Below are positions 1 to 32,634 of a stretch of 36,244 nt of DNA, one piece after another. Source of the stretch: a virus. The DNA lies in the IMG/VR virus record IMGVR_UViG_3300032308_000783, positions 1 through 36,244 of that record. One strand, given 5' to 3'. A program made the translations under genes and the position numbers. Under the pieces are notes generated by a model. It did not search any database. It had not been told where the DNA came from and saw only the letters and a list, made by a program, of their open reading frames with translations. The stretch's first letter is position 1. The number at the start of each line of letters is the position of its first letter.

Positions 1-111
1 CAAGTCCATGGGCAACACGAGATATATGCAACCACCATCCTTGCTTTTGAGTTCAATGCCCAGTTCTCTAGCCGCATCGCAAAAGTCTTCATACAGTTTA
101 AAGTTATACAT
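1..111 (-). CDS. Duplicated 5' part of the 137-aa unknown gene (same gene as 35819..36232)
   Basis: Because of the terminal repeat, the first 37 codons of the gene at 35819..36232 also appear here, running off the left edge. This is the same gene, not a second one. Its ATG overlaps the stop of the 50-residue gene at 111..263 (TAATG). That overlap shows that the two genes are neighbours across the join. Confidence 0.9.
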   Translation of the reverse strand, partial: MYNFKLYEDFCDAARELGIELKSKDGGCIYLVLPMDL

Positions 112-123
112 TATTCTACTGCC
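1..123. repeat. Terminal direct repeat, left copy
   Basis: These 123 bases are identical to the last 123 bases of the window. The simplest reading is a circular assembly or a circularly permuted genome. The length is also typical of an assembler k-mer overlap, so it should not be taken as a true physical terminal repeat without end mapping. The unique circle would be 36,121 bp. Confidence 0.95.
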
Positions 124-263
124 TCTTTAATAATGTCTAAACGATTGTATGCGTCTTTATGGCGTGTTTCCATATAGTCAATGATGTCCTCTTGCGTGGT
201 TGTTAGTGGAAAATCTAAGACATTTACCAAGTGTTGATCTAAATAAACCATTACTTTTAACAT
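111..263 (-). CDS. Small unknown protein (50 aa), early-type gene
   Basis: Encodes a 50-residue protein beginning MLKVMVYLDQ. I do not recognise the family. The start at 263 is chosen because AAGGAG lies at a good distance upstream; a longer reading to 302 would cover the promoter. It has its own sigma70-type promoter (294..322) with a leader of roughly 25 bases. Its stop overlaps the start of the next gene (TAATG), so it is translationally coupled, across the circle join, to the 137-residue gene at 35819..36232. Its size and private promoter suggest an early host-interaction gene, which is inference only. Confidence 0.7.
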   Translation of the reverse strand: MLKVMVYLDQHLVNVLDFPLTTTQEDIIDYMETRHKDAYNRLDIIKEAVE

Positions 264-293
264 TTGCTTCTCCTTGTTATTAACTATACAACT

Positions 294-322
294 ATTATAC
301 ATTTAATGGATTTATTGGTCAA
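294..322 (-). promoter_or_regulatory. Sigma70-type promoter P1
   Basis: On the minus strand TTGACC (317-322) is followed by 17 bases and TATAAT (294-299). The spacer resembles those of the three other promoters of this family (AATAAA..C.TT.AATG). The stretch AATGTATAATAGTTGTATAGTTAA from the end of the spacer into the leader is shared with P2. It drives the 50-residue gene at 111..263. Confidence 0.85.
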
Positions 323-343
323 CAACCCCGCAGGGCTGTTGTT
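321..343. terminator. Hairpin between a stop codon and promoter P1
   Basis: AACAAC-CCC / GGG-GTTGTT stem with a two-base bulge and a GCA loop, placed directly after the stop of the 64-residue gene and directly before the -35 of P1. On the plus strand it is followed by TTTTT, so it looks like an intrinsic terminator in that direction. For minus-strand transcripts there is no T-tract, so termination there is uncertain. Confidence 0.4.
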
Positions 344-344
344 T

Positions 345-539
345 TTACGCAACAGGTTTGCCTAATGCGGCCCATACATAAGCCTTGGACAAGTGCGGAC
401 TGCTAACTCTACCCCAACGGCGTAGTTGAGTGATAAAAGCAATCTTTTCATACTTGTCCAACTGATTGTAAACATCCACGGGTATGTTGTGCTCTTCAAG
501 CACTTTGCGTGACAGTGGTGATATGCGTATAGTTTTCAT
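345..539 (-). CDS. Small unknown protein (64 aa), early-type gene
   Basis: Encodes a 64-residue basic protein beginning MKTIRISPLS. I do not recognise a family. The ATG at 539 is preceded by AAAGGAG at proper spacing and by promoter P2 (569..597), giving a leader of about 25 bases nearly identical to that of the 50-residue gene. The central segment (QLDKYEKIAFITQLRRWGRV) looks helical with a basic patch and could be a small DNA- or protein-binding element. No function can be assigned. Confidence 0.7.
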   Translation of the reverse strand: MKTIRISPLSRKVLEEHNIPVDVYNQLDKYEKIAFITQLRRWGRVSSPHLSKAYVWAALGKPVA

Positions 540-568
540 TACTTCTCCTTTTGTTTAACTATACAACT

Positions 569-597
569 ATTATACATTAAACGCCTTTATTGGTCTG
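569..597 (-). promoter_or_regulatory. Sigma70-type promoter P2
   Basis: Minus strand: CAGACC (592-597), 17-base spacer, TATAAT (569-574). The -35 is weaker than in the other three copies, but spacer and leader match P1 closely. The -10 contains the TAA stop codon (570-572) of the upstream gene. Confidence 0.75.
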
Positions 598-836
598 TTG
601 TATTTAGACAACAGTTCTAGCGGGGTTAGTATGGCCAATTCTTCAGCAAATAGATCCGTATGTTTGGGGTTTTTATGTTGCAACACCACATGTTGGCAGT
701 GGTTTTGCATCATCTTCAAGTCCTCTGATTGCATCAGGACCATTTGTTGTAGCCAAGATTCAGTTTGGCAGTCCAAGCGTCTGGGACAAAAACTGATAGT
801 GCAGTAAGGGAAGTTGTCGTATGGGTAGTCATCCAC
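570..836 (-). CDS. Unknown protein (88 aa)
   Basis: Encodes 88 residues beginning with a GTG start (VDDYPYDN, read as Met) that overlaps the stop of the preceding lipoprotein gene by 8 bases, so the two are probably translated from one message from promoter P3. It holds several Cys and His (FPYCTISFCPRRLDC near residues 9-23; HCQHVVLQHKNPKH near 46-59), which could bind a metal, though no known zinc-binding family is recognised. Its stop lies inside the -10 of promoter P2. Confidence 0.6.
   Translation of the reverse strand: MDDYPYDNFPYCTISFCPRRLDCQTESWLQQMVLMQSEDLKMMQNHCQHVVLQHKNPKHTDLFAEELAILTPLELLSKYNRPIKAFNV
595..614. repeat. Hairpin immediately upstream of promoter P2
   Basis: Perfect 7-bp inverted repeat CTGTTGT/ACAACAG with a 6-base loop, ending within the -35 of P2. 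It lies inside the coding end of the 88-residue gene. Comparable hairpins lie just upstream of P1, P3 and P4. Confidence 0.5.
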
Positions 837-1116
837 GATAGCGATTGGGGTTCGTACAGCCTATTCTCAGTGCCCAAACCATAGCACGTATACGGGCTTG
901 GTATTCTCTGTCATGTTCATTCAGTAGTTCTGGGGCTGTGGGTGCAATGCCAGCCTCACGTTGTTGCTGTTCTAACCATATTATGGTAGCATCTAAATTG
1001 GCACAACTCGTGGTGTTCACTGTGATTTGTCGCAGTTCTGCTAGATCCACTGCTTGTGGCTGGGGTTTGGCGGCACACGCAGTTAGGATCAGGGCTAGGG
1101 CTAGAACTTTAAACAT
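829..1116 (-). CDS. Putative lipoprotein (95 aa)
   Basis: Encodes a 95-residue protein with a short hydrophobic signal (MFKVLALALILTACAA) ending in a lipobox-like LTAC, so residue C14 would be lipidated and the protein anchored in a membrane. Two further Cys (SCANL and GCTN) could form a disulfide outside the cytoplasm. The ATG at 1116 is chosen because an upstream in-frame ATG falls inside the -10 of promoter P3. With this start only six bases separate the -10 from the ATG, so the mRNA would be leaderless. It could be a superinfection-exclusion or outer spanin-like lipoprotein. Nothing in the sequence decides between these. Confidence 0.65.
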   Translation of the reverse strand: MFKVLALALILTACAAKPQPQAVDLAELRQITVNTTSCANLDATIIWLEQQQREAGIAPTAPELLNEHDREYQARIRAMVWALRIGCTNPNRYRG

Positions 1117-1122
1117 ACATGT

Positions 1123-1151
1123 ATTATACATTTTGTGCCTTTATGTGTCAA
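1123..1151 (-). promoter_or_regulatory. Perfect-consensus sigma70 promoter P3 (leaderless)
   Basis: Minus strand: TTGACA (1146-1151), 17 bases, TATAAT (1123-1128). Both hexamers and the spacing match the bacterial consensus exactly. The lipoprotein ATG begins seven bases after the -10. The -35 overlaps the last codons of the upstream 84-residue gene. A small CTGG/CCAG hairpin (1153-1164) lies just upstream. Confidence 0.9.
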
Positions 1152-1395
1152 TCTGGCGTGCCAGTCTGCGTTTGCCTGTGGTTGTGTATTCTGTTTTGGT
1201 TCTCAAATTGTAACTGCGGCGATTGGTGGGACGAGTCATGATGTCTGACACTTTTATCACACGTCCATCTGGCAACTGTATGGTTTCTGGCTGTACTAGG
1301 CGTGGGTCTCTGCGTGTGGATTTGGCTGGCATACCATATTTACGGCTAAATATGTGCGTAGGCAAGGTTTTTCGCTTGACAACGCCATTTGTCAA
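1141..1395 (-). CDS. Small basic protein (84 aa)
   Basis: Encodes about 84 residues rich in Arg, Lys and Thr with few acidic residues, consistent with nucleic-acid binding, but no family is recognised. No ATG is available near the 5' end. The TTG at 1395 is preceded by TAAGGA at suitable spacing and is the best start. An internal ATG at 1332 would give 63 residues. It follows the glycosyltransferase gene in the same direction after a 29-base gap. Its final codons carry the -35 of promoter P3. Confidence 0.6.
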   Translation of the reverse strand: MTNGVVKRKTLPTHIFSRKYGMPAKSTRRDPRLVQPETIQLPDGRVIKVSDIMTRPTNRRSYNLRTKTEYTTTGKRRLARQIDT

Positions 1396-1424
1396 AATAA
1401 TCCTTAATTATATGTGTGCCTTGC

Positions 1425-2525
1425 CTACTCCATCCATCCTGCTCCTGTGTAAACATTTGTAACATCCGCAAAGTACTGTTCAAACTTAGGTGCTATTTGC
1501 TGTAATGTATATTGCTGTGCCCATTCACGTATTTGATAGGGTTCCAAGGATTTTACATCCTCTATGGCTGCGACAAACTCACGCAAGGTATGACAGCGAT
1601 ATCCTGTGAGTCCTGCAATGTTGGTTTCTGGAAACACCGCCCAGTCTGGCGTGATCACAGGTGTGCCTGATAAAAATGCTTCTATTTGTACACCAGCAAA
1701 GGGTTCATTGTACTTGCTGCCTATGATCAAACATTGTGCTTTGCTTAGGAGTTCTGCACGAGTTTGGGGATCAGCATAGCCTACCAGTTCTACGTGTTCA
1801 GGTGTTTGTGTATAGCCCATGGCGGCCAAACTTCCTTGTCCTGCTATCTTCAACTTGATGCCTGCTCTACGTGTGGCTTCTATGGCAATGTCTACACCTT
1901 TGCCTGTGTAGATACGTCCCAGGAATACAGCATAATCTTCTTTGTCTTTTGAGAATACAAAGTCAGCAGGATCAAAGTAGTTGGGAATCACACGCCAGTA
2001 CCAGTCCTGTTTTAGTTGACTTATTGACTCTGCTCCGTACATGGCATTCATGATGGCATGGCTTTCATATACCCGCCAACGTGCAAAGGCGGTTGGATAT
2101 CCAATGCCTGTTTCTATGCAGATCAAGTCCTGTAACTGATCCGCAATGGCCTTGTGTCCAAATCCAAATGTGATGCATACTATGTCATGAGGTTGTGCTC
2201 GTTTACGAATTTCTTTTACAGCACGTTCAGTGAATATTTTGTAAGCATGATCGTTTATGTCAAATTGCGTAAAGCCTGTGGTTTTCCAACTCTTTGCATC
2301 CACATAGGCTTGACCATATGCTTGGATGTGATCCGCATCAGTGACAACTTCAACATGCTCTACATCTGGATATGACCAATCTACAGTGGCGTGTCCATAG
2401 TGAACAATTTCGTGTCCGCGACCGCTCATCATTTTTAAAAACTTATGCACTTTGCTGGTAAATGCACAGCCACAAAACTCTCGTGTGGTTTGAGTATGCG
2501 GAATACCTAATACGTGCAATCTCAT
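1425..2525 (-). CDS. Glycosyltransferase, GT4/GT-B type
   Basis: A 366-residue protein with the two-domain plan of family GT4 glycosyltransferases, which move a sugar from a nucleotide-sugar donor to an acceptor with retention. The C-terminal donor-binding half is clear: AVFLGRIYTGKGVD near 199-212, then KIAGQGS near 226-232, then the EX7E motif (E274 and E282 in EPFAGVQIEAFLSG) and PVITPDW. The N-terminal half is divergent. It lies among early-type small genes and shares an ATGA overlap with the upstream 149-residue gene. Likely targets are host surface glycans (blocking superinfection), a phage protein or modified DNA bases. The sequence does not choose between them. Confidence 0.85.
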   Translation of the reverse strand: MRLHVLGIPHTQTTREFCGCAFTSKVHKFLKMMSGRGHEIVHYGHATVDWSYPDVEHVEVVTDADHIQAYGQAYVDAKSWKTTGFTQFDINDHAYKIFTERAVKEIRKRAQPHDIVCITFGFGHKAIADQLQDLICIETGIGYPTAFARWRVYESHAIMNAMYGAESISQLKQDWYWRVIPNYFDPADFVFSKDKEDYAVFLGRIYTGKGVDIAIEATRRAGIKLKIAGQGSLAAMGYTQTPEHVELVGYADPQTRAELLSKAQCLIIGSKYNEPFAGVQIEAFLSGTPVITPDWAVFPETNIAGLTGYRCHTLREFVAAIEDVKSLEPYQIREWAQQYTLQQIAPKFEQYFADVTNVYTGAGWME

Positions 2526-2971
2526 TCAAACAACTCATTGAACAAGGGAGTTGGCGTCCTTTTGGGTGTGCCATACTTGCTGGGTGGACGATTGGGCACC
2601 GTTTCTCCGCGGTAGCGATTGATCACTTCACGCACACGCATGATGGTTTGCCATACATCGTTTTTGTATCCACTGGTTTTGACCTTGGGTTTGCCCACAA
2701 AATCTTTGTCTTTGGCCACGCACTTGTTAAGATTCAATTTGGCCCGCTCAAATACTGTGGTGTCTGCGGCATAAAAACTGCCAGGACTTTCACTGTAGAG
2801 TGCGTCTAATGCGGCATAGATATCTAACCAATCTTGATTACAGCGTTGATGCAACCAATGATCCCAAATGCATTCATCATCTGCTTCAATACCGCCATCC
2901 ACTTTGCATATTTCATTTAGGATTTTGACAATCTCTTGCAACAACTCTCCACCACGAATAATATCTCCCAT
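2522..2971 (-). CDS. Unknown protein (149 aa)
   Basis: Encodes 149 residues from the ATG at 2971. This start has AAGGAG six bases upstream, whereas the ATG six bases further up would overlap the ribosome binding site. The N-terminal half is acidic with several Cys/Trp residues (DDECIWDHWLHQRC near 36-49), and the C-terminal half is basic (PNRPPSKYGTPKRTPTP). I do not recognise a family. It is translationally coupled through ATGA to the glycosyltransferase, which hints at a joint role. Confidence 0.75.
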   Translation of the reverse strand: MGDIIRGGELLQEIVKILNEICKVDGGIEADDECIWDHWLHQRCNQDWLDIYAALDALYSESPGSFYAADTTVFERAKLNLNKCVAKDKDFVGKPKVKTSGYKNDVWQTIMRVREVINRYRGETVPNRPPSKYGTPKRTPTPLFNELFE

Positions 2972-2981
2972 GGTCATCTCC

Positions 2982-3245
2982 TTATTGTATCGCAGTTAGT
3001 GTTGCAGGATCAACTTCATGGGCTGTGATCATGTATTGACTGGCATCTATTTTGAGCAAGATAGTGTTGCCATTTTTATCCTTTGCTTCTACTATTTCAC
3101 CGTGCATGGCAAATCTCTCCGTGGCATCCACTTCTGGCAGTAGTTCTGGGTGTTGTTTTAGATAAGCCATGCGTTCATCTGGATCTGATATTGCAGCCAT
3201 GGCTTGATTGAATTTCTTTTCTCGTGCTTGTTGTTTATTACTCAT
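2982..3245 (-). CDS. Unknown protein (87 aa), first gene after promoter P4
   Basis: Encodes 87 residues beginning MSNKQQAREK, with a charged helical N-terminus and a short beta-like C-terminal part (NGNTILLKIDASQYMI). No family is recognised. The ATG is preceded by AAAGGAG. It sits about 45 bases downstream of promoter P4 and likely heads an early operon with the 149-residue gene, the glycosyltransferase and the 84-residue basic protein. Confidence 0.7.
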   Translation of the reverse strand: MSNKQQAREKKFNQAMAAISDPDERMAYLKQHPELLPEVDATERFAMHGEIVEAKDKNGNTILLKIDASQYMITAHEVDPATLTAIQ

Positions 3246-3288
3246 TTGTTTCTCCTTTAGGGGTTTGTATTGCTATATATATTTATCT

Positions 3289-3317
3289 ATACTACATTAA
3301 ATGCGTTTATTTGTCAA
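3289..3317 (-). promoter_or_regulatory. Sigma70-type promoter P4
   Basis: Minus strand: TTGACA (3312-3317), 17-base spacer AATAAACGCATTTAATG, TAGTAT (3289-3294). The spacer has the same pattern as the other three promoters. A 7-bp stem hairpin (3328-3346) lies about ten bases upstream. Confidence 0.85.
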
Positions 3318-3725
3318 TGCCTTATGGAGGTCTTTGGGCAAGACCTAACTCATATCTTACTTCGTAAGCCATTTCGTTTTGTTTTTGCCAAAAGATGTTT
3401 TTGTTTTAAGGAATAAGTAGATGCCAAGAGGACTCGCGTAGCGAGTTTTGGCTTCTGCTTGGGACGGCATACGCAGTATGCTGGCCCTGTATATGTATTA
3501 GTAATAACTTACACAAGAGACACCACTACCCTCCCCCCAATTGAATGGCTATAGTAGTAAGCCTGCTCAATCCGTGAACATAGGTTCAGACGCTGAAAAC
3601 AATTTTTAGTCAGATTCATGGCTTCCCCAAGGCGAGGCCTGACAGCCCTGTTTATAGACTTTGCCCTTAGTATTGTCCAGGCTTTGGTCTCTTCCACGCA
3701 CAGAGAGGGTTTGTGTCGCTGGGTG
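3318..3725. other. Non-coding region with clustered palindromes
   Basis: About 400 bases with no convincing gene. Four compact hairpins occur in series: 3328-3346 (AGGTCTT/AAGACCT, 5-base loop); 3356-3368 (CTTAC/GTAAG, 3-base loop); 3423-3452 (GCCAA..ACTCGC-GTA-GCGAGT..TTGGC, two-tier stem); and 3461-3487 (GGG.CGGCATAC-GCA-GTATGC TG.CCC, about 11 paired positions with one mismatch). The 3509-3725 part is different: it is GC-richer with G- and C-runs (CCCTCCCCCC at 3529-3538) and weaker stems. No tRNA or known riboswitch pattern was found. Candidates are a replication origin, a packaging site or a structured RNA. Confidence 0.6.
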
Positions 3726-6137: not shown

Positions 6138-6350
6138 ATGACCAAAGGCATAGTGACAGTAAAATACAAACCAGAACCAACGGACACACCAATACTAGAC
6201 ATGGCAGGCATAAGAATAGAAATAGATGAAGATGATCCAGAATCAGTTTGGATTTGGATGATTGAAAATGGACTTAAGGTTGAAGGTGGTCGTTTTAGTC
6301 TTGATGAATTTATGCATGTAGTACTAAAGTACTACAACGAAAATTATTGA
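6138..6350 (+). CDS. Small acidic unknown protein (70 aa)
   Basis: Encodes 70 acidic residues (IEIDEDDPESVWIWMIENG in the middle). The ATG follows the GroES stop by one base, with GGAG in the last GroES codons, so it is co-translated with the co-chaperonin. No family is recognised. It ends the plus-strand operon and overlaps the 3' end of the convergent 51-residue gene by seven bases. Confidence 0.7.
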   Translation: MTKGIVTVKYKPEPTDTPILDMAGIRIEIDEDDPESVWIWMIENGLKVEGGRFSLDEFMHVVLKYYNENY

Positions 6351-6499
6351 TTTTTAAGACTGGCTTTGATTTGCAAAATTAGATCTTCAATGCGATCCAA
6401 TCTACGGTCAGTTTGATCTAATTTATCTAGCAGAGCGTTGAAACGTTCTTCACACTCTGCTAGATGATCTTCCAATGAGAATTTGAGCAGTTGGCCCAT
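6344..6499 (-). CDS. Small coiled-coil protein (51 aa)
   Basis: A 51-residue protein beginning MGQLLKFSLE, with a heptad-like helix over most of its length (FNALLDKLDQTDRRLDRIEDLILQIK, split about 20-45), predicting a short coiled coil. Its ATG overlaps the Dps stop (TAATG), so it is translationally coupled to Dps and is the last gene of the minus-strand block. It could be a Dps partner or a minor virion protein. The reading rests on coupling and composition only. Confidence 0.65.
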   Translation of the reverse strand: MGQLLKFSLEDHLAECEERFNALLDKLDQTDRRLDRIEDLILQIKASLKNQ

Positions 6500-6939
6500 T
6501 AATCATCTTCGCCAACTGTGGCTTCAACCATCCAACGGAATTTGGCCAATGCGGCAATTTGATCTTGTGCAAAGTTGCTGATGTCAATGTAGTTTACTTC
6601 TTCAGCAGCATCATTCAATTCATGATATTGATCAATCATGGCTTCCAAAGATTCATCCACTTGTTTGAACAGTTCACCACTGTCGCCTTCTGCTGGGAAG
6701 TCCATAATGGGACTTAGTTGTAGTACTGTCATCAGATCTGAAGGCATGCTACCACGTATGGTTTTTAACTTTTCTGCTAGGATGTCAATGTTGTCTTGAA
6801 AATATTCATAAATTTTTTGTAGCAACTTGTGATCACTATAAAAATTACGACCTTGAATGTTTACATGTGCCACATGAGCACGATAGTAACTGACAAAGTT
6901 AGCGGCAAATACTTCTTCTAGTTTGGTTTGTAGGTCCAT
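6499..6939 (-). CDS. dps-like: Dps-like ferritin-family protein (146 aa)
   Basis: A 146-residue four-helix protein of the Dps family. The ferroxidase residues are all present with the spacing of E. coli Dps (H51/H63/D78/E82): here H25, H37, D52 and E56, within AHVAHVNIQGRNFYSDH and NIDILAEKL. Dps proteins form 12-subunit shells that oxidise Fe(II) with peroxide and store iron, and some bind DNA. It has no long basic N-terminal tail, so DNA binding in the E. coli manner is doubtful. It sits at the end of the virion gene block after the internal-protein genes, so it could be packaged, or it could protect phage DNA from oxidative damage in the infected cell. Confidence 0.87.
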   Translation of the reverse strand: MDLQTKLEEVFAANFVSYYRAHVAHVNIQGRNFYSDHKLLQKIYEYFQDNIDILAEKLKTIRGSMPSDLMTVLQLSPIMDFPAEGDSGELFKQVDESLEAMIDQYHELNDAAEEVNYIDISNFAQDQIAALAKFRWMVEATVGEDD

Positions 6940-13628: not shown

Positions 13629-16600
13629 TTATCTTCTGTAGTTTGTCACTGTCAAACTGTAACCGCCAGAACCAATTTGAACAAAGTTTTGTGTAGGAGC
13701 AACGTTGCTTGAAACGTTAATATAAGCACCCCATACCCACAAATAAGTTACTGTTGCTGGAGCGGTTACTGTAAAAATATCAATGATTCCCACTTCATTC
13801 AATCTATAAGGCAATATTGTTTGTGTGCTGGTTATTGGTCCGCCAGTGTATCCTGTAGCGGCTGGAGTTGTTATAAATGATCCTGGTACTTGAGTGTTAA
13901 CACCACCAACACTACGAATTAAAAATCCGTACATTTGTGGAGCAATAGTTGTTCCACCATTGGCAGTGGTAGTTCCCCATACATCTATATATCCACTGAT
14001 CACATTGGTAACATTATTAGTAGTAGCACTAATACTGGTACTGTCAACAACCACATTGACAGTTTGGTAATAATACCAAGTACCGTCATATCCAGCATAA
14101 CCTATTGAAGGAGTTAGAATGGTATATCCTGTGCCCGCTCTGCCAGAAGTTGCTGTAGCAGAGTTAGGAACCATTGTGGTTGTTTGAACAGTATTGGCTT
14201 GTAAGTTGCCTGCTGTGACCAAACCAGCCACAGCCAAGTTACCACCAATTACTGCATTGTTACCAATGTTCAAGTTGTTGCCAATAGCAACACTACTGCC
14301 AATAATGGCATTGTTGCCCACTGTTAGGTTGTTGCCAATCACAGCATTGTTGCCAACACCAAAACTGTCTCCAACCACGGCATTGTTGCCAACCAGCAAG
14401 TTGTTGCCAATGGTGGCATTTGTTCCTACGTTTAGGTTGGCACCTATTTGTGCATTGGTTCCAACAGTCAAGTTGTTGCCAATGGCTAAACTACTACCAA
14501 TGATAGCATTGTTGCCTACTGTCAAATTGTTGCCAATCACAGCAATATTGCCTACTCCAAAGTTGTTGCCAACTAGAGCATTGTTACCAATACTTAGGTT
14601 GTTGCCAATAATGGCATTTGTGCCCACATTTAGGTTGGCACCAATTTGTGCATTTAGGCCTACCAATAGGTTGTTGCCAACCAAGGCATTGTTACCAATA
14701 GCCAAACTGTTACCAATTACTGCATTGTTGCCCACTGTCAGGTTGTTGCCAATGCTGGTGTTGCCTGCCATGCGGGCATCACCTGAGGATGCTTGCATCC
14801 AGAAACCAGGACTGTTGAAATCTCCAACTACACCAAGTCCACCACGCAAGTTTAAGGTATAAACATCATTGGCGTTTAGGGCTGTGGCATTTACTGAGCC
14901 TGTGACAAACACGTTGCCAGAGATAACTTGACCATTTACCTGAGTCCATACGTTGGCTGTGGCATTGTATTCTTTTACTACTATGGTATTGGTTGGTGTG
15001 TACACAAACTGTGCCACGTCACCTGTGATAGGAGCATAACCAGTACCAATTGGAAGTGCCACGTTGGCACGATTGGCCGCAAATGAATATGTGTATTCAC
15101 CTGTGGTATAACTGGTAGGATCACTAGCAGTGGCCACATAAGCCATTGGAACAAATCCACGTGGACCTGTGTCACCCATAAAGCCACTGGATTGAATAGT
15201 GTCTTGCCAGGCCAGTGTACTTACTGTGGCATTGGCATTGGTTGTAAATGCCAATGTTGCTGAACTATAAACTGTTTCAGTTGGAGTTGGAGTTTGATTA
15301 TTCAACAAGGTCCAAGTGGCAATTTGTGGTGGATTGGCAATGGTATTATGTTTGCGAATAATTAATGCACCAGTACCACCATAGGTATTGTATCCGTTGT
15401 TGAGACGGGCAGGCCCACTTGGATTATAATTATAATGTAAATTGTATGATGATACAGCACGGGAAGTTGCTCCACCACCAGATCCAGTACCAAACGCACC
15501 CCATTGTATTTGTACACTAGGATCAAATCCATATGCGTTATATGTAGGATTAAGTTGTAAAGGATAATATGGATTTGTAGGAAAGTTTAATAAAACTTGT
15601 CCTTGCCCAGAAGCCAGTTGATTAGGACCTTTATTACCAAGGCCACCAGCACTTGCTGTTGGAGGTGGACTATAGAATGTGTTGGTGCTGTTTATTAATG
15701 CACCACCACCGCCACCAAAATAAGCCACATTGGCACCTGACCAAGGAGCACCATTGGGCCAAGTATAGGTGCCTGACATTTGACCAAGCCAGGTTATTTC
15801 TCTCCAAGGATCAGCAAAACCTGCGCCACCATTGTATGGAGTATATGAATTTGTATAGGCTGGATATGGTGCACCACCAATGATACCAACACCATCAACC
15901 ATGGCATTACTACCAAATGATCCCAAACGATTAGGATCAGGAATTGTTACACCTGGCGCATTAAATGATGAATTAAATGGAGCAGTCCATGTTCCACCTG
16001 GCCCAGTTAACGTAGTACTTACACCTGCACCGTGATATACCTGATAAGTACCCACTGGTAATGCCACATTACTTGCAACTAAAATATTACCAGCACGGCC
16101 AGGAGTATATGTACCACTACCAGTTGGATTAACGTTGCCATCACTACCTGCAGCAATCAACATTAGATCAACATAAGCAGTATTGCCAGAGACAGTAAAA
16201 GTATCTAAATAGACGTTACCAGTACTGTAGTTAATTCCACCTGTGCCTGTATAATATCCATAACTACTCAATACATTACCAACTGTATAGGTATTAGCAA
16301 ATATAGTATAGTAAGTATTGCTAATACTTGGATATGTAACATTACTCACTGTGTTGGTATAAATTTTAACTATGTTATTGTTATATTTTGTGTTAAATGT
16401 AATGGTACTTGCTGGCAATACATATGGAGTATAAATGTAGTTTGGATCTAATGGCGGAGTACCTGTGCCTGTTGCAAAGTTCCAACTACCAGAATTGACT
16501 AAAGGTGTGTTTGGAAAAAAGTTTGTTAAAGTATATGCATTGAAATCAAAAGTGCTGATACCATCAGTACCAGGTGCGCCATTGGCTCCAGTAGCACCTG

Positions 16601-17330
16601 TAGCGCCATTGGCGCCATTGGCTGTAAATAGTGTGGGGAATGTCCACACTTTGCTTGGTGCCACTACAAAATCTTGACTGCTTTGGAAAGTATTCTGACT
16701 GGTGAATACAAATGTATTACCATCAGCAGGAGGAGTGTTGGCTGACCATCCCACTGGTGGATTTAAAAATAAATTTCCAAAATTGTATGTACCACCTGTT
16801 GGTGTTGCAGGAGTTACATTACCACGACGAAACACAGTTGCGGTAAAGATTGTTTGTGTTGAAGTTACGTCATCCAGGTTGATAGGAACAGTATCTTGTA
16901 CAGAGCGGAAATAGTAGCCAGGACTGGTTGTGTTCACGTTGAAGAATATCTGACGTCCGCCAAGTGTTTGATAAAACAAACTTTTGGTTGTGCCAAAACC
17001 GCCACCTGACACCTGGGTCCATTGATAATCAGCAGGATTGGTATTGAACACATTGGCTGTGGTATTTTGAATACCATAGTACAGTTTGTTGGCACTATTG
17101 CTACTGAAACTACCACCAGTGGCAGTATTGGCATAGGCCACATTCATGTACTGATACAGATAGGCCACAGTGGTGCCCTGTGTGCTGATCACACCAGTGG
17201 TCACGTTGGCAGTCAACACATTGGCAGTATTGGCACCAGTACCGCCTTGACCCAAGTTACTTAGAACATAGTTTAAGGCTGATACTTTGTCTTCATCACT
17301 GCTGTTTGAATCTAATGCAAATGTGCTCAT
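13629..17330 (-). CDS. Large tail fibre/adhesin with hexapeptide-repeat shaft (1233 aa)
   Basis: A 1233-residue fibre. The N-terminus (about 1-235) has beta-rich modules (WTQVSGGGFGTTKSLFYQT, PPVGWSANTPPADG) typical of marine phage fibres. A short collagen-like piece lies near 236-255 ([17 protein letters not shown]). A glycine-rich adhesin-like domain follows (about 390-690), ending GGTGALIIRKHNT. At about 857-1036 roughly thirty six-residue repeats of the form N-(A/L)-x-(I/V)-G-(N/x) should build a beta-helical or trimeric shaft. The C-terminal part (about 1040-1233) is probably the tip. Its ATG overlaps the stop of the gp10-like gene, and a fibre chaperone gene follows. Role: host recognition. 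Confidence 0.8.
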   Translation of the reverse strand: MSTFALDSNSSDEDKVSALNYVLSNLGQGGTGANTANVLTANVTTGVISTQGTTVAYLYQYMNVAYANTATGGSFSSNSANKLYYGIQNTTANVFNTNPADYQWTQVSGGGFGTTKSLFYQTLGGRQIFFNVNTTSPGYYFRSVQDTVPINLDDVTSTQTIFTATVFRRGNVTPATPTGGTYNFGNLFLNPPVGWSANTPPADGNTFVFTSQNTFQSSQDFVVAPSKVWTFPTLFTANGANGATGATGANGAPGTDGISTFDFNAYTLTNFFPNTPLVNSGSWNFATGTGTPPLDPNYIYTPYVLPASTITFNTKYNNNIVKIYTNTVSNVTYPSISNTYYTIFANTYTVGNVLSSYGYYTGTGGINYSTGNVYLDTFTVSGNTAYVDLMLIAAGSDGNVNPTGSGTYTPGRAGNILVASNVALPVGTYQVYHGAGVSTTLTGPGGTWTAPFNSSFNAPGVTIPDPNRLGSFGSNAMVDGVGIIGGAPYPAYTNSYTPYNGGAGFADPWREITWLGQMSGTYTWPNGAPWSGANVAYFGGGGGALINSTNTFYSPPPTASAGGLGNKGPNQLASGQGQVLLNFPTNPYYPLQLNPTYNAYGFDPSVQIQWGAFGTGSGGGATSRAVSSYNLHYNYNPSGPARLNNGYNTYGGTGALIIRKHNTIANPPQIATWTLLNNQTPTPTETVYSSATLAFTTNANATVSTLAWQDTIQSSGFMGDTGPRGFVPMAYVATASDPTSYTTGEYTYSFAANRANVALPIGTGYAPITGDVAQFVYTPTNTIVVKEYNATANVWTQVNGQVISGNVFVTGSVNATALNANDVYTLNLRGGLGVVGDFNSPGFWMQASSGDARMAGNTSIGNNLTVGNNAVIGNSLAIGNNALVGNNLLVGLNAQIGANLNVGTNAIIGNNLSIGNNALVGNNFGVGNIAVIGNNLTVGNNAIIGSSLAIGNNLTVGTNAQIGANLNVGTNATIGNNLLVGNNAVVGDSFGVGNNAVIGNNLTVGNNAIIGSSVAIGNNLNIGNNAVIGGNLAVAGLVTAGNLQANTVQTTTMVPNSATATSGRAGTGYTILTPSIGYAGYDGTWYYYQTVNVVVDSTSISATTNNVTNVISGYIDVWGTTTANGGTTIAPQMYGFLIRSVGGVNTQVPGSFITTPAATGYTGGPITSTQTILPYRLNEVGIIDIFTVTAPATVTYLWVWGAYINVSSNVAPTQNFVQIGSGGYSLTVTNYRR
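14222..14760. repeat. 18-bp degenerate repeat array in the fibre gene
   Basis: About thirty 18-base units of the type TTGTTGCCAATGGTGGCA encode the hexapeptide shaft. They are degenerate at third positions but similar enough to allow slippage or recombination. Confidence 0.8.
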
Positions 17331-18990: not shown

Positions 18991-19869
18991 TTAATAAGAA
19001 AGGTATTTAATAACTATTATACCTGTTTGTCCACTGGTGGCGCTGACAATCTGACTTTGTCCATTACCAGTTCCGCCTGCTCCACCTGAACCAACTGCTG
19101 TAGGAGCATATCCACCGTGTAGACCAGCACTGATTCCTAACGAGGTAGCAGTACTTGAACTTGGATTGCCAGCGCCACCACCACCTTCAGCGTAGGCCAC
19201 ATTGGCTCCTGTTATTCTACTAAAATATCTTGCGCCACCGTTGCGTAATGTTGCTGTAGGAACGTCCCAGTTACTACTGCCGTTATATGTGAAACCTGCT
19301 CCTGATCCACCTCCACCACCACCTGCACTATATTCTACAGTACTACTAGTACCACCTATACTGGCAGCACCACCTGAAAAACCTTGTCCTGAAGTGCCAG
19401 CACTACCTGCTGTGGTGGTTCCTGTACTGGCTGTCCAACCGCCGCCTCCAGACCCGCCAATGGCACCATTGTCATCATTGGGATTACCACCATAACCACC
19501 ACCAGTGGCAGTTAGTCCTGATACACCAGTGCCTGTGATAGAACTGTTGTCACCATTTGTTGGATTGATTAATGTTGTTCCACTCCAAGAAGCGCCAGAA
19601 CCACCAAAACCCACTGTAATAGTATATGTGGTGCCAGGTGTAATATTGCTTAAAGTTGCGGCAAGTACACCGCCAGCACCACCTCCACCACCCAAACTAA
19701 AATTGGATTGACTATAAGTACCTGAACCACCACCACCTCCACCACCAACAATTAATATTTCAACAGGTGCGGTAATAGTGGCTGGAGCAGTCCAGGTAGT
19801 GCTTGATGTAAATGTTTGTACAGTATATGTCGCTGAATCAAACTGCATCTGCTTCATTGCGCCAAACAT
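18991..19869 (-). CDS. Glycine-rich adhesin (292 aa)
   Basis: A 292-residue protein with repeated Gly runs (IVGGGGGGGSG near 39-49, GGGGGAGG, SAGGGGGGSG and others), an N-terminal TFTSSTTWTAPATITAP strand, and the ending GIIVIKYLSY. This pattern is that of glycine-rich phage adhesins, in which poly-Gly II helices pack together and intervening loops bind the host. Its ATG overlaps the stop of the collagen-like fibre gene (TAATG), so it is likely made in step with that fibre and caps it. The loops between Gly blocks are the expected host-range determinants. Confidence 0.78.
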   Translation of the reverse strand: MFGAMKQMQFDSATYTVQTFTSSTTWTAPATITAPVEILIVGGGGGGGSGTYSQSNFSLGGGGGAGGVLAATLSNITPGTTYTITVGFGGSGASWSGTTLINPTNGDNSSITGTGVSGLTATGGGYGGNPNDDNGAIGGSGGGGWTASTGTTTAGSAGTSGQGFSGGAASIGGTSSTVEYSAGGGGGGSGAGFTYNGSSNWDVPTATLRNGGARYFSRITGANVAYAEGGGGAGNPSSSTATSLGISAGLHGGYAPTAVGSGGAGGTGNGQSQIVSATSGQTGIIVIKYLSY

Positions 19870-22800
19870 TATGCATATCCTTTGACCAGACTGGCATAAA
19901 ACGTGGTACCATTGGGTGTAAAGATATTAATGATATCTACTGCATTGGCCGCAGTACTCAAGGTCTTGCTACCACCTGCATACAACAAGTTACTGGTCAA
20001 CAAACGGTTGCCTGTGGCATCCTGTGTAACAATCAAGGTCACACTTGATCCTGCACTGGCTCCACCAATGTTGTCACTATTGAGTGTGATATCTCCAGTG
20101 GCTGTTACTGTGTACACAGGTGCCTGTTGCACATTTAGGCTCAATGCTCCTGTTGTGGCTGATGTAGCCAAAACCTTTTCACGATAAGTGATGAATTGAC
20201 CTGTCATAGACACGTTGCTGGTCATAGACACGTTACCAAAGTTGTTTACTGGACCTGAGGTTTGTATTGTGGTATTGGTGTCTTCATTAAGAACAGCAAA
20301 ACGACCTAGGATAGGATTGCTGGCTGCACCTACTAGACCTGAACCTGCCCAACCGTTATATGTGTGCAATCCCACTGCATATTGTACTGTTAGGTTTGAA
20401 CTGAATCCTGTAACGAATGGTGTCAATCCACGTGCATATACCACGTTGGCTCTACCGCCTGTGCCTGCTGTGCTTTGTAAGGTTAAGAAAGTCAACTGGC
20501 CAGTGGCATATTGAATGTTGGCAGTTGTGCCAACTGCTGGAGTAACAAACACACCATTGGTGGCTCCAGCGACACCGCCAACACTACCACCACCATTGAT
20601 GCTGACAAAATTACTACCACCTGTCAATGTTGAAGCATTTTGACTGGTTGTGGTCATGGTGCCCCAGGTTATGCCACGTATGTTGGCATCTAAAGCGGCA
20701 GTAAAAGCACGTACACGATCAGTATTGCTCATGCTGTTGGCTGTGACTGGCACTACACCCATCACAACTGCGGAACCCACAGTATTGCGATTTTGTGAGC
20801 CAAAGCCATAACCTGATTGTAGGGCAATGTTACTGCTTTGAGCAAAGCCAATCACTTGACCTGACTGTGATACTATGGTGGCACCACCTGGTGTGGCATT
20901 GGCCAAGGGTGGCTGTTGTAATTGCTCATTGGTGTAGGTTGGATTGTGTACAAAGTAGTTGGCAAAGTCATTGCCTGGTATTGTAAAATCTGGTGTGCTT
21001 AAAGGGAAAGCATTGGCAAATATACGTTCGTTTACGGAATCATACAAGATGTTGCCTGCCAAGTTGCCTGAGAAACTAGCACCACCTCCACCTGTTTGTG
21101 CTACCCATTGTGTGTTGTAATCTGTTGAATCAATTTTGGCCAACACTTGTCCTGCAGTACCACCAACTGGCACGCCTGCACCTGTTACACCAGTGGCACC
21201 AGTTGCGCCTACGTTGCCTTGCGTGCCTTGCGGCCCTGTAGCACCCGTGGGTCCTGTGGCACCAACATCACCCTGAGGTCCTGTTGCTCCAGTTGCGCCT
21301 GCATTGCCTTGCGGACCAGTTGCACCTGTGTTGCCTTGTACACCCTGTGGTCCTGTAGCGCCAGTGGCGCCTGTATCTCCTGTAACACCAGTTGCACCAG
21401 CAGGTCCAGTTGCTCCTGTAACGCCTGTTGCGCCAGTGGCACCTACGTTACCTGTTATGCCTTGTGGTCCTGTAGCACCAGTGGCACCCGCATCTCCTTG
21501 AATACCCTGTGGTCCTGTAGCACCTGTTAGGCCAGTTGCACCTGTAGGTCCTGTTGCCCCTTCTGGGCCAGTTGCTCCTGTAACACCTGTAGCACCAGTT
21601 AAACCAGTGGCTCCAGTTAAGCCCACATTACCTTGAATGCCTTGTGGTCCTGTTGCGCCTGTTGCACCTGAGGCTCCAGTAGCACCCTCTGGACCAGTTG
21701 CACCAGTAATGCCTGTGGCACCAGTAGCACCCACATTTCCTTGAATGCCTTGTGGCCCTGTTGCTCCTTCTAGGCCAGTTGCACCAGTAATGCCTGTGGC
21801 ACCAGTAGCACCCACATTTCCTTGAATGCCTTGTGGCCCTGTTGCTCCAGTGGCTCCTTCTGGGCCTGTAGCACCTACTACACCACTTGCACCAGTTGCT
21901 CCTACAGGGCCAGTTGCTCCTGTATCTCCTGTAATACCAGTTGCACCTACTGGGCCAGTGGCTCCTGTGATACCAGTTGCTCCTGTGGCACCCACATTTC
22001 CTTGAATACCTGTAGCGCCAACATCACCCTGAGGTCCTGTTGCACCTGTATTGCCAGTTACACCAGTGGCACCAGTTGGGCCTGTTGCTCCTTCTGGTCC
22101 TGTTGCGCCTGTAATACCAGTGGCTCCTGTGGCTCCAACGTTGCCTGTAATACCTGTAGCGCCTGTTGCACCTACGGGTCCTGTTGCTCCTGTGGCTCCT
22201 GTGGCACCTGCTGGGCCTACAATAGTACCAATGTTGGTCCAGGTACCTGAATTTAATACCCAAAGATCGCCTGTGGCAAGATCAATAACACCGTTGCCGC
22301 TTACAGCACTTGGAAAGGCTGTGTTTAATGTTGTTTGTGGATTGTTTGGTGGATTTACATTGACGTCTGGTACACTACCAATAATGGTTACTGATGTTCC
22401 TTGTGGTCCAGTAGCGCCAGTAGCGCCTGTAGCACCTGATGCTCCTGTAAGGCCTGTTGCACCTGTGGCTCCCACTGGTCCTGTTGCACCTTCTGGGCCA
22501 GTTGCACCTGTAATACCAGTTGCTCCTGATGCACCTACGTTACCTGTTATGCCTTGTGGTCCTGTTGCTCCAACGTTACCTTGTGGTCCTGTTGCTCCAA
22601 CATCTCCTTGTGGTCCTGTTGCGCCTGTAACGCCTGTGGCTCCTGTAGGTCCTGTTGCCCCTTCTGGGCCAGTTGCTCCTGTAACACCTGTAGCACCAGT
22701 TAAACCAGTGGCTCCAGTCAAGCCCACATTACCTTGAATGCCTTGTGGTCCTGTTGCTCCTTCTGGACCAGTTGCTCCAATGGGACCTTGTGGTCCTGTA

Positions 22801-23432
22801 GCACCAGTAGGGCCAGTTGCTCCAGCAGGTCCTGTGGCTCCTTCTGGACCAGTTGCTCCAATGGGACCTTGTGGTCCTGTAGCACCAGTAGGGCCAGTTG
22901 CTCCAGCAGGTCCTGTTGCTCCAGTTGCACCTGTAACGCCTGTAGCGCCAGTTAAACCAGTGGCTCCTGTGGCTCCAATGTTGCCTTGAATACCTTGTGA
23001 TCCTGTAGCACCAGTGGCTCCAGCAACGCCTGATGCACCTGTGGCACCTGCTGGTCCTGTAGCGCCTGTAACGCCTGTGGCACCTGTGGGTCCTGTAGCG
23101 CCAGTTGATCCTGCTGGACCGCTTGCACCAGTAGCACCCACATTTCCTTGTGGTCCTGTAGAACCTATTGGCCCTGTGGCTCCGCTGGCTCCTGCTGGGC
23201 CAGTAGCACCTGTGGGTCCTGTAGCACCAGTAGCACCAGTAGCACCTGTGGCTCCTACTGAGCCAATGGCAAATGCTTGTACCTGTGTGTTACCTGTGGA
23301 CAACGTAAAAGAAACACTGGCATTGTTGGCCAGTAGTAATAATAGTTGTTCAGCACTGGTTAGTACTGCGGTTCTGCCGCTTAAATTGTATAAACCTGTT
23401 GTGTTCGCTACTGCTACATTTCCTAAAGCCAT
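19869..23432 (-). CDS. Collagen-like tail fibre (1187 aa)
   Basis: A 1187-residue fibre. Residues 1-58 form a non-collagen N-terminus that would attach to the tail. Two long Gly-X-Y blocks (about 59-345 and 410-755), mostly [12 protein letters not shown], form a collagen-like triple helix. They are split by a beta module (about 346-409) containing [19 protein letters not shown]. The C-terminal 430 residues are beta-rich, beginning [20 protein letters not shown], and probably trimerise the fibre or bind the next part. AAGGATC lies upstream of the ATG. It is coupled to the glycine-rich adhesin. The DNA contains long internal repeats, so the shaft length may vary between isolates. Confidence 0.88.
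21541..21656. repeat. 116-bp repeat, copy A, in the collagen-like gene
   Basis: Matches 22642-22757 in the same orientation with one mismatch. The copies are 1101 bases (367 codons) apart, so recombination between them would delete or add the region including the beta module in frame. Confidence 0.85.
21694..21849. repeat. 81-bp tandem repeat in the collagen-like gene
   Basis: Two nearly identical copies with an 81-base period (27 codons, nine Gly-X-Y triplets). Confidence 0.8.
22642..22757. repeat. 116-bp repeat, copy B, in the collagen-like gene
   Basis: Partner of 21541-21656, with one mismatch. Confidence 0.85.
22761..22921. repeat. 81-bp tandem duplication in the collagen-like gene
   Basis: Two almost exact tandem copies with an 81-base period (start of unit TTCTGGACCAGTTGCTCC at 22761 and 22842). 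It is the same period as at 21694-21849, which implies repeated whole-unit duplication. Confidence 0.85.
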
Positions 23433-31717: not shown

Positions 31718-32353
31718 TCAAGACTCCTGATCGTACATGACAGTGGTTGTGGCACCCAGGGCCCATTTGGCATCTGTTTCCACACTCCATCTACGAGTGG
31801 CCACACGGAAGTCTGGCTGTTTTAATTCTTTGGGATTGCTACTGGGTTCTAATATGAGTAGTCTGTTGTTGGGCTGTGCGGCAAACTGTCCGTTGTCACA
31901 ACGCACAAAGTTATAACTCTTGTGATCTTCTACATCTTCTGAAAAGCCTGTGTCCAACACATTGAAGTCTGGATGTGCTGAGTCCACAGTGAACATGTAT
32001 TCACCGCTCATCCAGCCGCCAGATTTCAGTTTGATTTTGCAACGCTGGCTTTGTAACTGTGCTTTTTTGATCACGGTAATGTCGTAACTGAGGCAGTCCC
32101 ATAATTGTAGGTAGTCCAAGGGTAAGGGTTCACCTTCAATGGGTCGCCAACAAAATGCATGTAAGGGCAACTTGTCATAGAGTGCACCATATTCATTTAG
32201 ATATGCTTCTATACGGAATGCTTGACCACGCAGACTTTTGATTGAGATCCACCAGCAGGGTACCAGTTCACCATGACCAGATTCAAAGTCATACAAGAAC
32301 TCCTTGCGTACAAAACATTTCACAGGGGGTAGGTTGGCCACTATGTGACTCAT
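31718..32353 (-). CDS. Unknown protein upstream of terminase (211 aa)
   Basis: Encodes 211 residues, rich in Trp/Tyr and beta-prone, e.g. FLYDFESGHGELVPCWWIS near 19-37. I do not recognise the family. It is coupled at both ends: its ATG overlaps the preceding stop (ATGA) and its own stop precedes the terminase TTG start. This gene order suggests a role in packaging or an early assembly step. It is too long and beta-rich for a typical small terminase. Confidence 0.7.
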   Translation of the reverse strand: MSHIVANLPPVKCFVRKEFLYDFESGHGELVPCWWISIKSLRGQAFRIEAYLNEYGALYDKLPLHAFCWRPIEGEPLPLDYLQLWDCLSYDITVIKKAQLQSQRCKIKLKSGGWMSGEYMFTVDSAHPDFNVLDTGFSEDVEDHKSYNFVRCDNGQFAAQPNNRLLILEPSSNPKELKQPDFRVATRRWSVETDAKWALGATTTVMYDQES

Positions 32354-32634
32354 GGCGTAGCACCTGTTTGTGTTTCACGTATCTGATTCAGTAGCCAGGC
32401 TGTGTGAGCCAGTTCACGCAGTTCTGCTGTGCTCATGCGCCAAGAGTCTGGATCCGCAACATCAACTCCATCACGCTTGTCTAGACCTGCTTGCAGTCTT
32501 TCCATTGTGAGTCTTAAGCAATGTTCTACCTGTCCTGGATACTTGTTGGCAAAGGCTTCACGCAGGCTGCCGTTGACCTTTTGTAGGATTTTGGTATCAG
32601 CAGTTTGTGCTGCCGCTGTGTCTTGACGGTTCAT
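32350..32634 (-). CDS. Small helical protein, possible small terminase (94 aa)
   Basis: Encodes 94 residues from the ATG at 32634, chosen because it overlaps the previous stop (TAATG). The protein is helical and charged, with a middle (HCLRLTMERLQAGLDKRD) and an end (STAELRELAHTAWLLNQIRE) that could make helix bundles. It lies two genes before the large terminase, which makes it one of two candidates for the small terminase subunit. No DNA-binding motif is evident. Confidence 0.65.
   Translation of the reverse strand: MNRQDTAAAQTADTKILQKVNGSLREAFANKYPGQVEHCLRLTMERLQAGLDKRDGVDVADPDSWRMSTAELRELAHTAWLLNQIRETQTGATP

Follow-up and report, generated by a model that had tools for sequence, protein, structure and literature searches.

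In silico analysis of the virus record IMGVR_UViG_3300032308_000783 (36,244 bases; hereafter the window, meaning the whole of this stretch of DNA) revealed four predicted promoters, P1–P4, which carry a conserved sequence box within the spacer separating their -35 and -10 hexamers. The same box has been found in the genomes of several largely unrelated phages and is nearly absent from sampled bacteria. The explanation regarded as probable, without being secure, is that P1–P4 are early promoters resembling the 'uber' promoters of phage T4, used by the host sigma70 RNA polymerase, and that their box is read by a component common to the hosts of these phages. The window encodes terminase, portal and head proteins, and nearly all of its large genes are located on the minus strand.

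Anatomy of the promoters and of the spacer box

All four sites are present on the minus strand at the positions proposed in an initial annotation of this DNA, each with a spacer of 17 nucleotides (nt): P1 at 294–322 (-35 TTGACC at 317–322, -10 TATAAT at 294–299), P2 at 569–597 (CAGACC at 592–597, TATAAT at 569–574), P3 at 1123–1151 (TTGACA at 1146–1151, TATAAT at 1123–1128) and P4 at 3289–3317 (TTGACA at 3312–3317, TAGTAT at 3289–3294). The pattern TTGACN-N17-TATAAT given there fits P1 and P3; the -35 of P2 and the -10 of P4 depart from it. Hexamers of the sigma70 type, 16–18 nt apart, are recognisable with 11 of 12 matching positions in P1, 12 of 12 in P3 and 10 of 12 in P4; the CAGACC element of P2, in the form CAGACCAATAAAGGC, recurs in the related record L027. 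The dinucleotide TG directly abuts the -10 in P1–P4 (TATAAT, in the form AATGTATAAT, or TAGTAT), the TGn motif of an extended -10 at -15/-14 is absent from all four, and TGC precedes the -10 in two variants from the records G018 and G009.

Counted from the sixth -35 base, the spacers read AATAAATCCATTAAATG (P1), AATAAAGGCGTTTAATG (P2), CATAAAGGCACAAAATG (P3) and AATAAACGCATTTAATG (P4). The pattern of the box promoters is TTGACC-N-ATAAATCC-N-TTWAATG-TATAAT, the spacer box being ATAAATCC-N-TTWAATG, and P1 matches it at 16 of 16 box positions. In leave-one-out scoring with a 29-position matrix each site reached 29.1–32.7 bits and was outranked by the other three sites only, while the best non-member site on either strand of the window scored 9.7 bits with the same matrices. 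When the spacer alone was scored, 4–7 of 72,456 window positions reached the scores of the members.

The conserved unit extends downstream of the -10 as TATAAT-N6-AT, followed in P1 and several other promoters by AGTTGTATAGTTAATAA-AAGGAG. The downstream part of P1 (264–293, minus strand; AGTTGTATAGTTAATAACAAGGAGAAGCAA), which includes the ribosome-binding site AGGAG, has a counterpart in the jumbo-phage record G018: positions 264–323 of the window and 60807–60866 of that record form a 60-bp match of 88.5% identity, so that the DNA similarity spans the -35 through the ribosome-binding site. P1 and P2 resemble each other over the same extent. Conservation of the flanks was assessed in 71 non-redundant promoters which had been chosen by the box, so the conservation of the box in this set is not independent and that of the flanks is. 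Upstream of the -35 a weak GG alone is conserved; the box and the -10 are strongly conserved and N6-AT more weakly. Seventeen of the 71 have, 5–7 nt past TATAAT, an ATG that begins a reading frame of 40 codons or more, and almost none has one at neighbouring offsets, which points to leaderless mRNAs and to the position of the start site. The start positions of P1–P4 are predicted at 287, 562, 1116 and 3282, respectively, because of the TATAAT-N6-A spacing seen in many phages. P3 has the layout TATAAT-ACATGT-ATG, and the mRNA of its gene is predicted to be leaderless because the ATG is located at the predicted start site 1116.

The spacers are conserved beyond the needs of plain sigma70 recognition, as the initial annotation had held, since consensus promoters without the box coexist with box promoters in the same records. 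For this comparison every exact TTGAC...TATAAT pair was collected; the spacer was not used in the choice, though the records themselves had been found via the box. On the gene strand, all 19 pairs in G018 (289 kb) and 11 of 12 in G009 (65 kb) have a gap of exactly 18 nt between TTGAC and TATAAT. The 44 consensus promoters of four records fall into two groups, 16 with a box score of at least 12 and 28 with a score of at most 9, and the interval separating them is empty; the probability that a random 18-mer attains a score of 12 or more is 2e-4. The box-less consensus promoters beside the box ones indicate that the box is dispensable for the polymerase and marks a class. Eight of the ten tested box-driven genes of G018 have no PHROG match. 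The genes behind box-less promoters, in G018, its relative G009 and other box records, encode IscU, a radical-SAM protein, an exonuclease, DnaJ-like proteins, a tail-fibre-like protein and GroES. The box-driven genes resemble an early takeover class. Genes for IscU, a tryptophan-halogenase-like protein and GroES/GroEL are also present in the box-bearing records L198 (12841–13218), L029 (4361–5938) and L160 (3752–5668), respectively.

Distribution among phages and bacteria

A scan of 2.9 million viral contigs with the promoter pattern yielded 27 stretches, and 51 with a looser pattern. In most of them a gene starts just downstream; chance-like matches within genes also occur, e.g. in L011, L018, L020 and L023. 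With up to three mismatches the box pattern is present in 15 of 49 records, versus 0 matches to a reversed-pattern control in all 49. The highest copy numbers, 12 in the jumbo-phage record G001 (357 kb), 11 in G018 and 7 in G004 (220 kb), are confined to a single strand, with none on the opposite one. The search of relatives and viromes suggested in the initial annotation has thereby returned many further box sites in viral contigs of other samples, and the expectation that conserved spacers stand ahead of unrelated small genes was borne out.

The phages which carry the box have little else in common. G018, a sheathed tailed phage, is related to G009. No protein of at least 100 amino acids (aa) is common to G011 and the other fetched records, and G015 has few proteins in common with them. 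The window has no detectable protein in common with the box-bearing records G009, G011 and G015; with G018 it has just three, and no regulator is recognisable among them. Among the closer relatives, a disappearance of the spacer similarity had been named as an outcome that would speak against the element, and it occurs in part: most of the window relatives of about 36 kb (terminases 71–80% identical) are without the box, and the nearest ones that have the region (G021, G024 and L027) keep it in full or diverged forms at early regions, as G044 does. Three relatives without the box (G025 at 143, G041 at 6210 and G045 at 32627) have in common another conserved stretch at the start, approximately TATAAT-ACACWTACATTGTTAAACATTAAGGAGG, possibly the counterpart of this signal for a different host.

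The exact 24-base pattern gave 0 matches in 84,980 bacterial and archaeal genomes (257 Gb), and a looser pattern gave five scattered, chance-like matches in the same material, in Clostridia and one Pelagibacter single-cell genome. With up to three mismatches, among 398 sampled Pseudomonadota genomes, a match was present in the previously found genome alone and in none of the other 397. The 43-base cassette retrieved nothing convincing from 50,697 cultured-phage or 72,556 plasmid records, and no description of the box was found in the open-access literature. The GroEL of G011 did not name a host either, its closest copy among the sampled bacteria being only 73% identical. A reading of the material, rather than a computation, suggests a fresh-water origin of the box records.

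What may read the box

In the proposed mechanism, P1–P4 would be strong promoters of the sigma70 type, recognised by the vegetative RNA polymerase of the host, and each would drive a single small gene or a short operon, most likely early in infection. To the hexamers they would add the spacer box and the conserved start region N6-AT...GTTAA...AAGGAG. The box would define a promoter class common to several largely unrelated phage lineages, and the hosts of these phages would share a component that reads or senses it. This component could be the polymerase itself, its contacts and the shape of the DNA being adjusted to give very strong promoters, in the manner of the T4 early ones; it could also be a DNA-binding protein of the host. 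In shared hosts, the phages may have converged on the box or exchanged it. A reader of host origin is the most economical explanation, given that the box phages have no protein which all of them share. A phage regulator reading the spacer, as proposed in the initial annotation, is disfavoured by the proteins compared above, and neither a sigma factor of phage origin nor a multi-subunit RNA polymerase was found. The RNA polymerase beta-subunit family PF00562 has no match in the window, G001 or G018 (14 of 14 controls positive), and sigma70 region 2 (PF04542) has none in nine records, in a search which detected 10 of 14 controls and which a divergent sigma factor could escape.

Several points weigh against this account. 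Some of the records are incomplete, and a phage gene common to all could have escaped the comparison; the search for a single-subunit RNA polymerase (PF00940), which gave no match, was made without a positive control. The bacterial scans cover sampled genomes, which may not include the right host. The spacer identities given below compare sites partly picked for the box, the box-less consensus promoters leave room for a separate regulator, and the difference in median gene size between box and box-less promoters (91 versus 126 aa, p 0.06) is merely suggestive.

The closest known likeness is that of the T4 early promoters, for which 'additional regions of consensus' and the term 'uber' promoters have been described (PMC2988021). 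Both systems combine near-consensus -35 and -10 elements, extra consensus positions, the host polymerase and sites throughout the genome, and an extra consensus beyond the two hexamers is found here, as in T4, across many promoters of one phage. In contrast to T4, the extra consensus of the box promoters is a different one, TG abuts the -10 in place of a TGn element, and the consensus spans several largely unrelated lineages instead of one phage group (PMC2988021). The window itself is not a T4-like phage, with about 36 kb and portal, terminase and head families of the podovirus type. The start-associated sequences of cluster K mycobacteriophages are likewise short asymmetric repeats ahead of many non-structural genes, mostly in one orientation and nearly absent from host genomes; they lie, however, at the start codon with a proposed translational role, whereas the box lies between the -35 and the -10 (PMC3203893). 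Cluster O mycobacteriophages carry several host-type, SigA-like promoters per genome, some of them predicted to be leaderless; in the part of that report consulted these have no conserved spacer box, and the 17-bp palindromic repeats are a separate element (PMC4351075).

A weighty competitor, although an unlikely one on present evidence, is that the box is the site of a dedicated transcription factor, encoded by host or phage, which binds between the -35 and the -10 and switches a phage regulon apart from plain sigma70 promoters. The clean separation of box and box-less consensus promoters within the same records agrees with such a factor, as do the position of nearly all box-like matches, in register inside a promoter, and the box-driven genes, mostly small and of unknown kind. 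The box is, however, only weakly palindromic, one arm position being A or T about equally and thereby breaking the symmetry, and no protein is common to all box-bearing phages in comparable material. Spacer-binding activators of the MerR type act on longer spacers of 19–20 bp, which also counts against this alternative. A dyad-symmetric operator (TAAAT-CC-ATTTA in the consensus) was considered as well and rejected, about half of the sites breaking the symmetry.

It is improbable that one promoter cassette was recently duplicated or copied horizontally without selection on its spacer. The match of P1 to the G018 cassette, the likeness of P1 and P2 from the -35 to the ribosome-binding site, and the fact that the window and G018 did exchange a gene are in its favour. 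That gene, at 31718–32353 (minus strand), encodes a 211-aa protein of PHROG 3704 (named ferredoxin there) without a Pfam match, whose nearest relatives in cultured phages are those of cyanophages, at about 55%. It is 89% identical to its G018 counterpart in protein and 80.7% in DNA, which looks like a recent exchange and fits a shared host. Spacer identity is nevertheless 0.73 within and 0.70 between genomes, a value partly built in by the selection of sites, with 'between' mixing related (G018/G009) and unrelated genome pairs. The corresponding values are 0.42 and 0.43 for the unselected downstream stretch, and 0.32 and 0.29, i.e. background, for the upstream flank. Compared genome by genome, the window spacers are as similar to those of G011 and G015 (0.74) as they are to one another. 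Since spacers are about as alike between phages as within a genome, local duplication does not explain their likeness, and the spread by duplication of a promoter module suggested in the initial annotation is not supported. Copying is further opposed by upstream flanks at background (0.30) next to a box at 0.7, and by the retention of the box in proteomically unrelated phages.

Far less credible is the view of P1–P4 as ordinary strong sigma70 promoters in an AT-rich intergenic region, whose spacers are alike by chance or composition; the near-consensus hexamers and AT-rich spacers would fit, and the leave-one-out and spacer-only scores, the split into two classes and the recurrence in many phages against an empty reversed control refute it. 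Least likely of all is a phage-encoded RNA polymerase of the phiKZ-like jumbo or N4 hairpin type, for although phiKZ/AR9 early promoters, also of jumbo phages, share an extended AT-rich motif and a start 6 nt downstream (PMC5312081), and hairpins lie near P1 and P2, those promoters are read by a phage polymerase whereas no multi-subunit enzyme was detected in the box phages, the -35 elements here are near consensus at a fixed 17-nt spacing, the window holds no polymerase gene of N4 size (its two largest open reading frames encode collagen-like and hexapeptide repeats), and the hairpin conserved at each N4 promoter is not conserved at the box promoters.

Hairpins, downstream genes and meaning of the box

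The initial annotation had placed a hairpin just upstream of each -35. This stands for P1 (321–343, minus strand; shuffle p 0.02), where the structure is strong (-18.4 kcal/mol for the 50-mer), and marginally for P2 (595–614, minus strand; 7-bp stem, weak, p 0.08), the 3' arm overlapping the -35 in both. The short inverted repeat upstream of P3 (1153–1164, minus strand; p 0.18) and the inverted repeat upstream of P4 (3328–3346, minus strand; p 0.16) lie within the range of shuffled sequences and are not significant. At p ≤ 0.05, P1 alone passes among 20 box promoters, compared with 3 of 28 box-less ones; a hairpin is therefore no conserved part of the unit, and the designation 'hairpin-promoter cassette' has been dropped. 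Immediately before the -35 of some jumbo-phage sites stands a hairpin resembling a terminator (CCCGC...GCGGGTTTTTT), and the hairpins, where present, are read as the ends of the preceding unit.

The genes behind P1–P4 are all encoded on the minus strand. P1 is followed by a small gene (111–263) of 50 aa, counted from the ATG behind the ribosome-binding site, with no match in Pfam or NCBIfam; the mechanical list of open reading frames extends it to 302, within the promoter. P2 precedes a 64-aa gene (345–539), also without a family match, and P3 a gene of about 95 aa (829–1116) with a lipobox-like N-terminus, MFKVLALALILTACAA. Three genes follow P4, successively of 87 aa (2982–3245), of 151 aa (2522–2977) and for a group 1 glycosyltransferase (1425–2525).

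Elsewhere on the minus strand of the window are genes for a ferritin/Dps-like protein (6499–6939), with a 32% relative in G018, for a protein of 1187 aa with numerous collagen-like repeats, located where the G+C content is highest (19869–23432), and for one of 1233 aa in which hexapeptide (left-handed beta-helix) repeats lie close to the C-terminus (13629–17330). In the relative L034 a homologue of the left-end gene 1141–1395, together with early promoters, lies directly upstream of homologues of the right-end and terminase genes. This gene order joins the two ends of the window, which is thus probably a circularly permuted, near-complete genome.

A wider proposal is offered tentatively, as a possibility we would sooner doubt than assert: the box may be targeted by a host regulator not described so far, or by a specificity of the host polymerase, that several unrelated lineages of 36 kb to more than 350 kb would exploit independently for a distinct class of takeover genes. 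If this is true, sequence alone would reveal a regulatory code tied to the host, by which uncultivated phages could be assigned to their hosts. For the majority of freshwater phages no host is known, and a promoter signature which unrelated phages have in common, and which differs from the ordinary promoters nearby, points to a common host system. This signature provides a means, at the level of sequence, of grouping phages by host, of locating early takeover genes and of testing the influence of the spacer on promoter strength.

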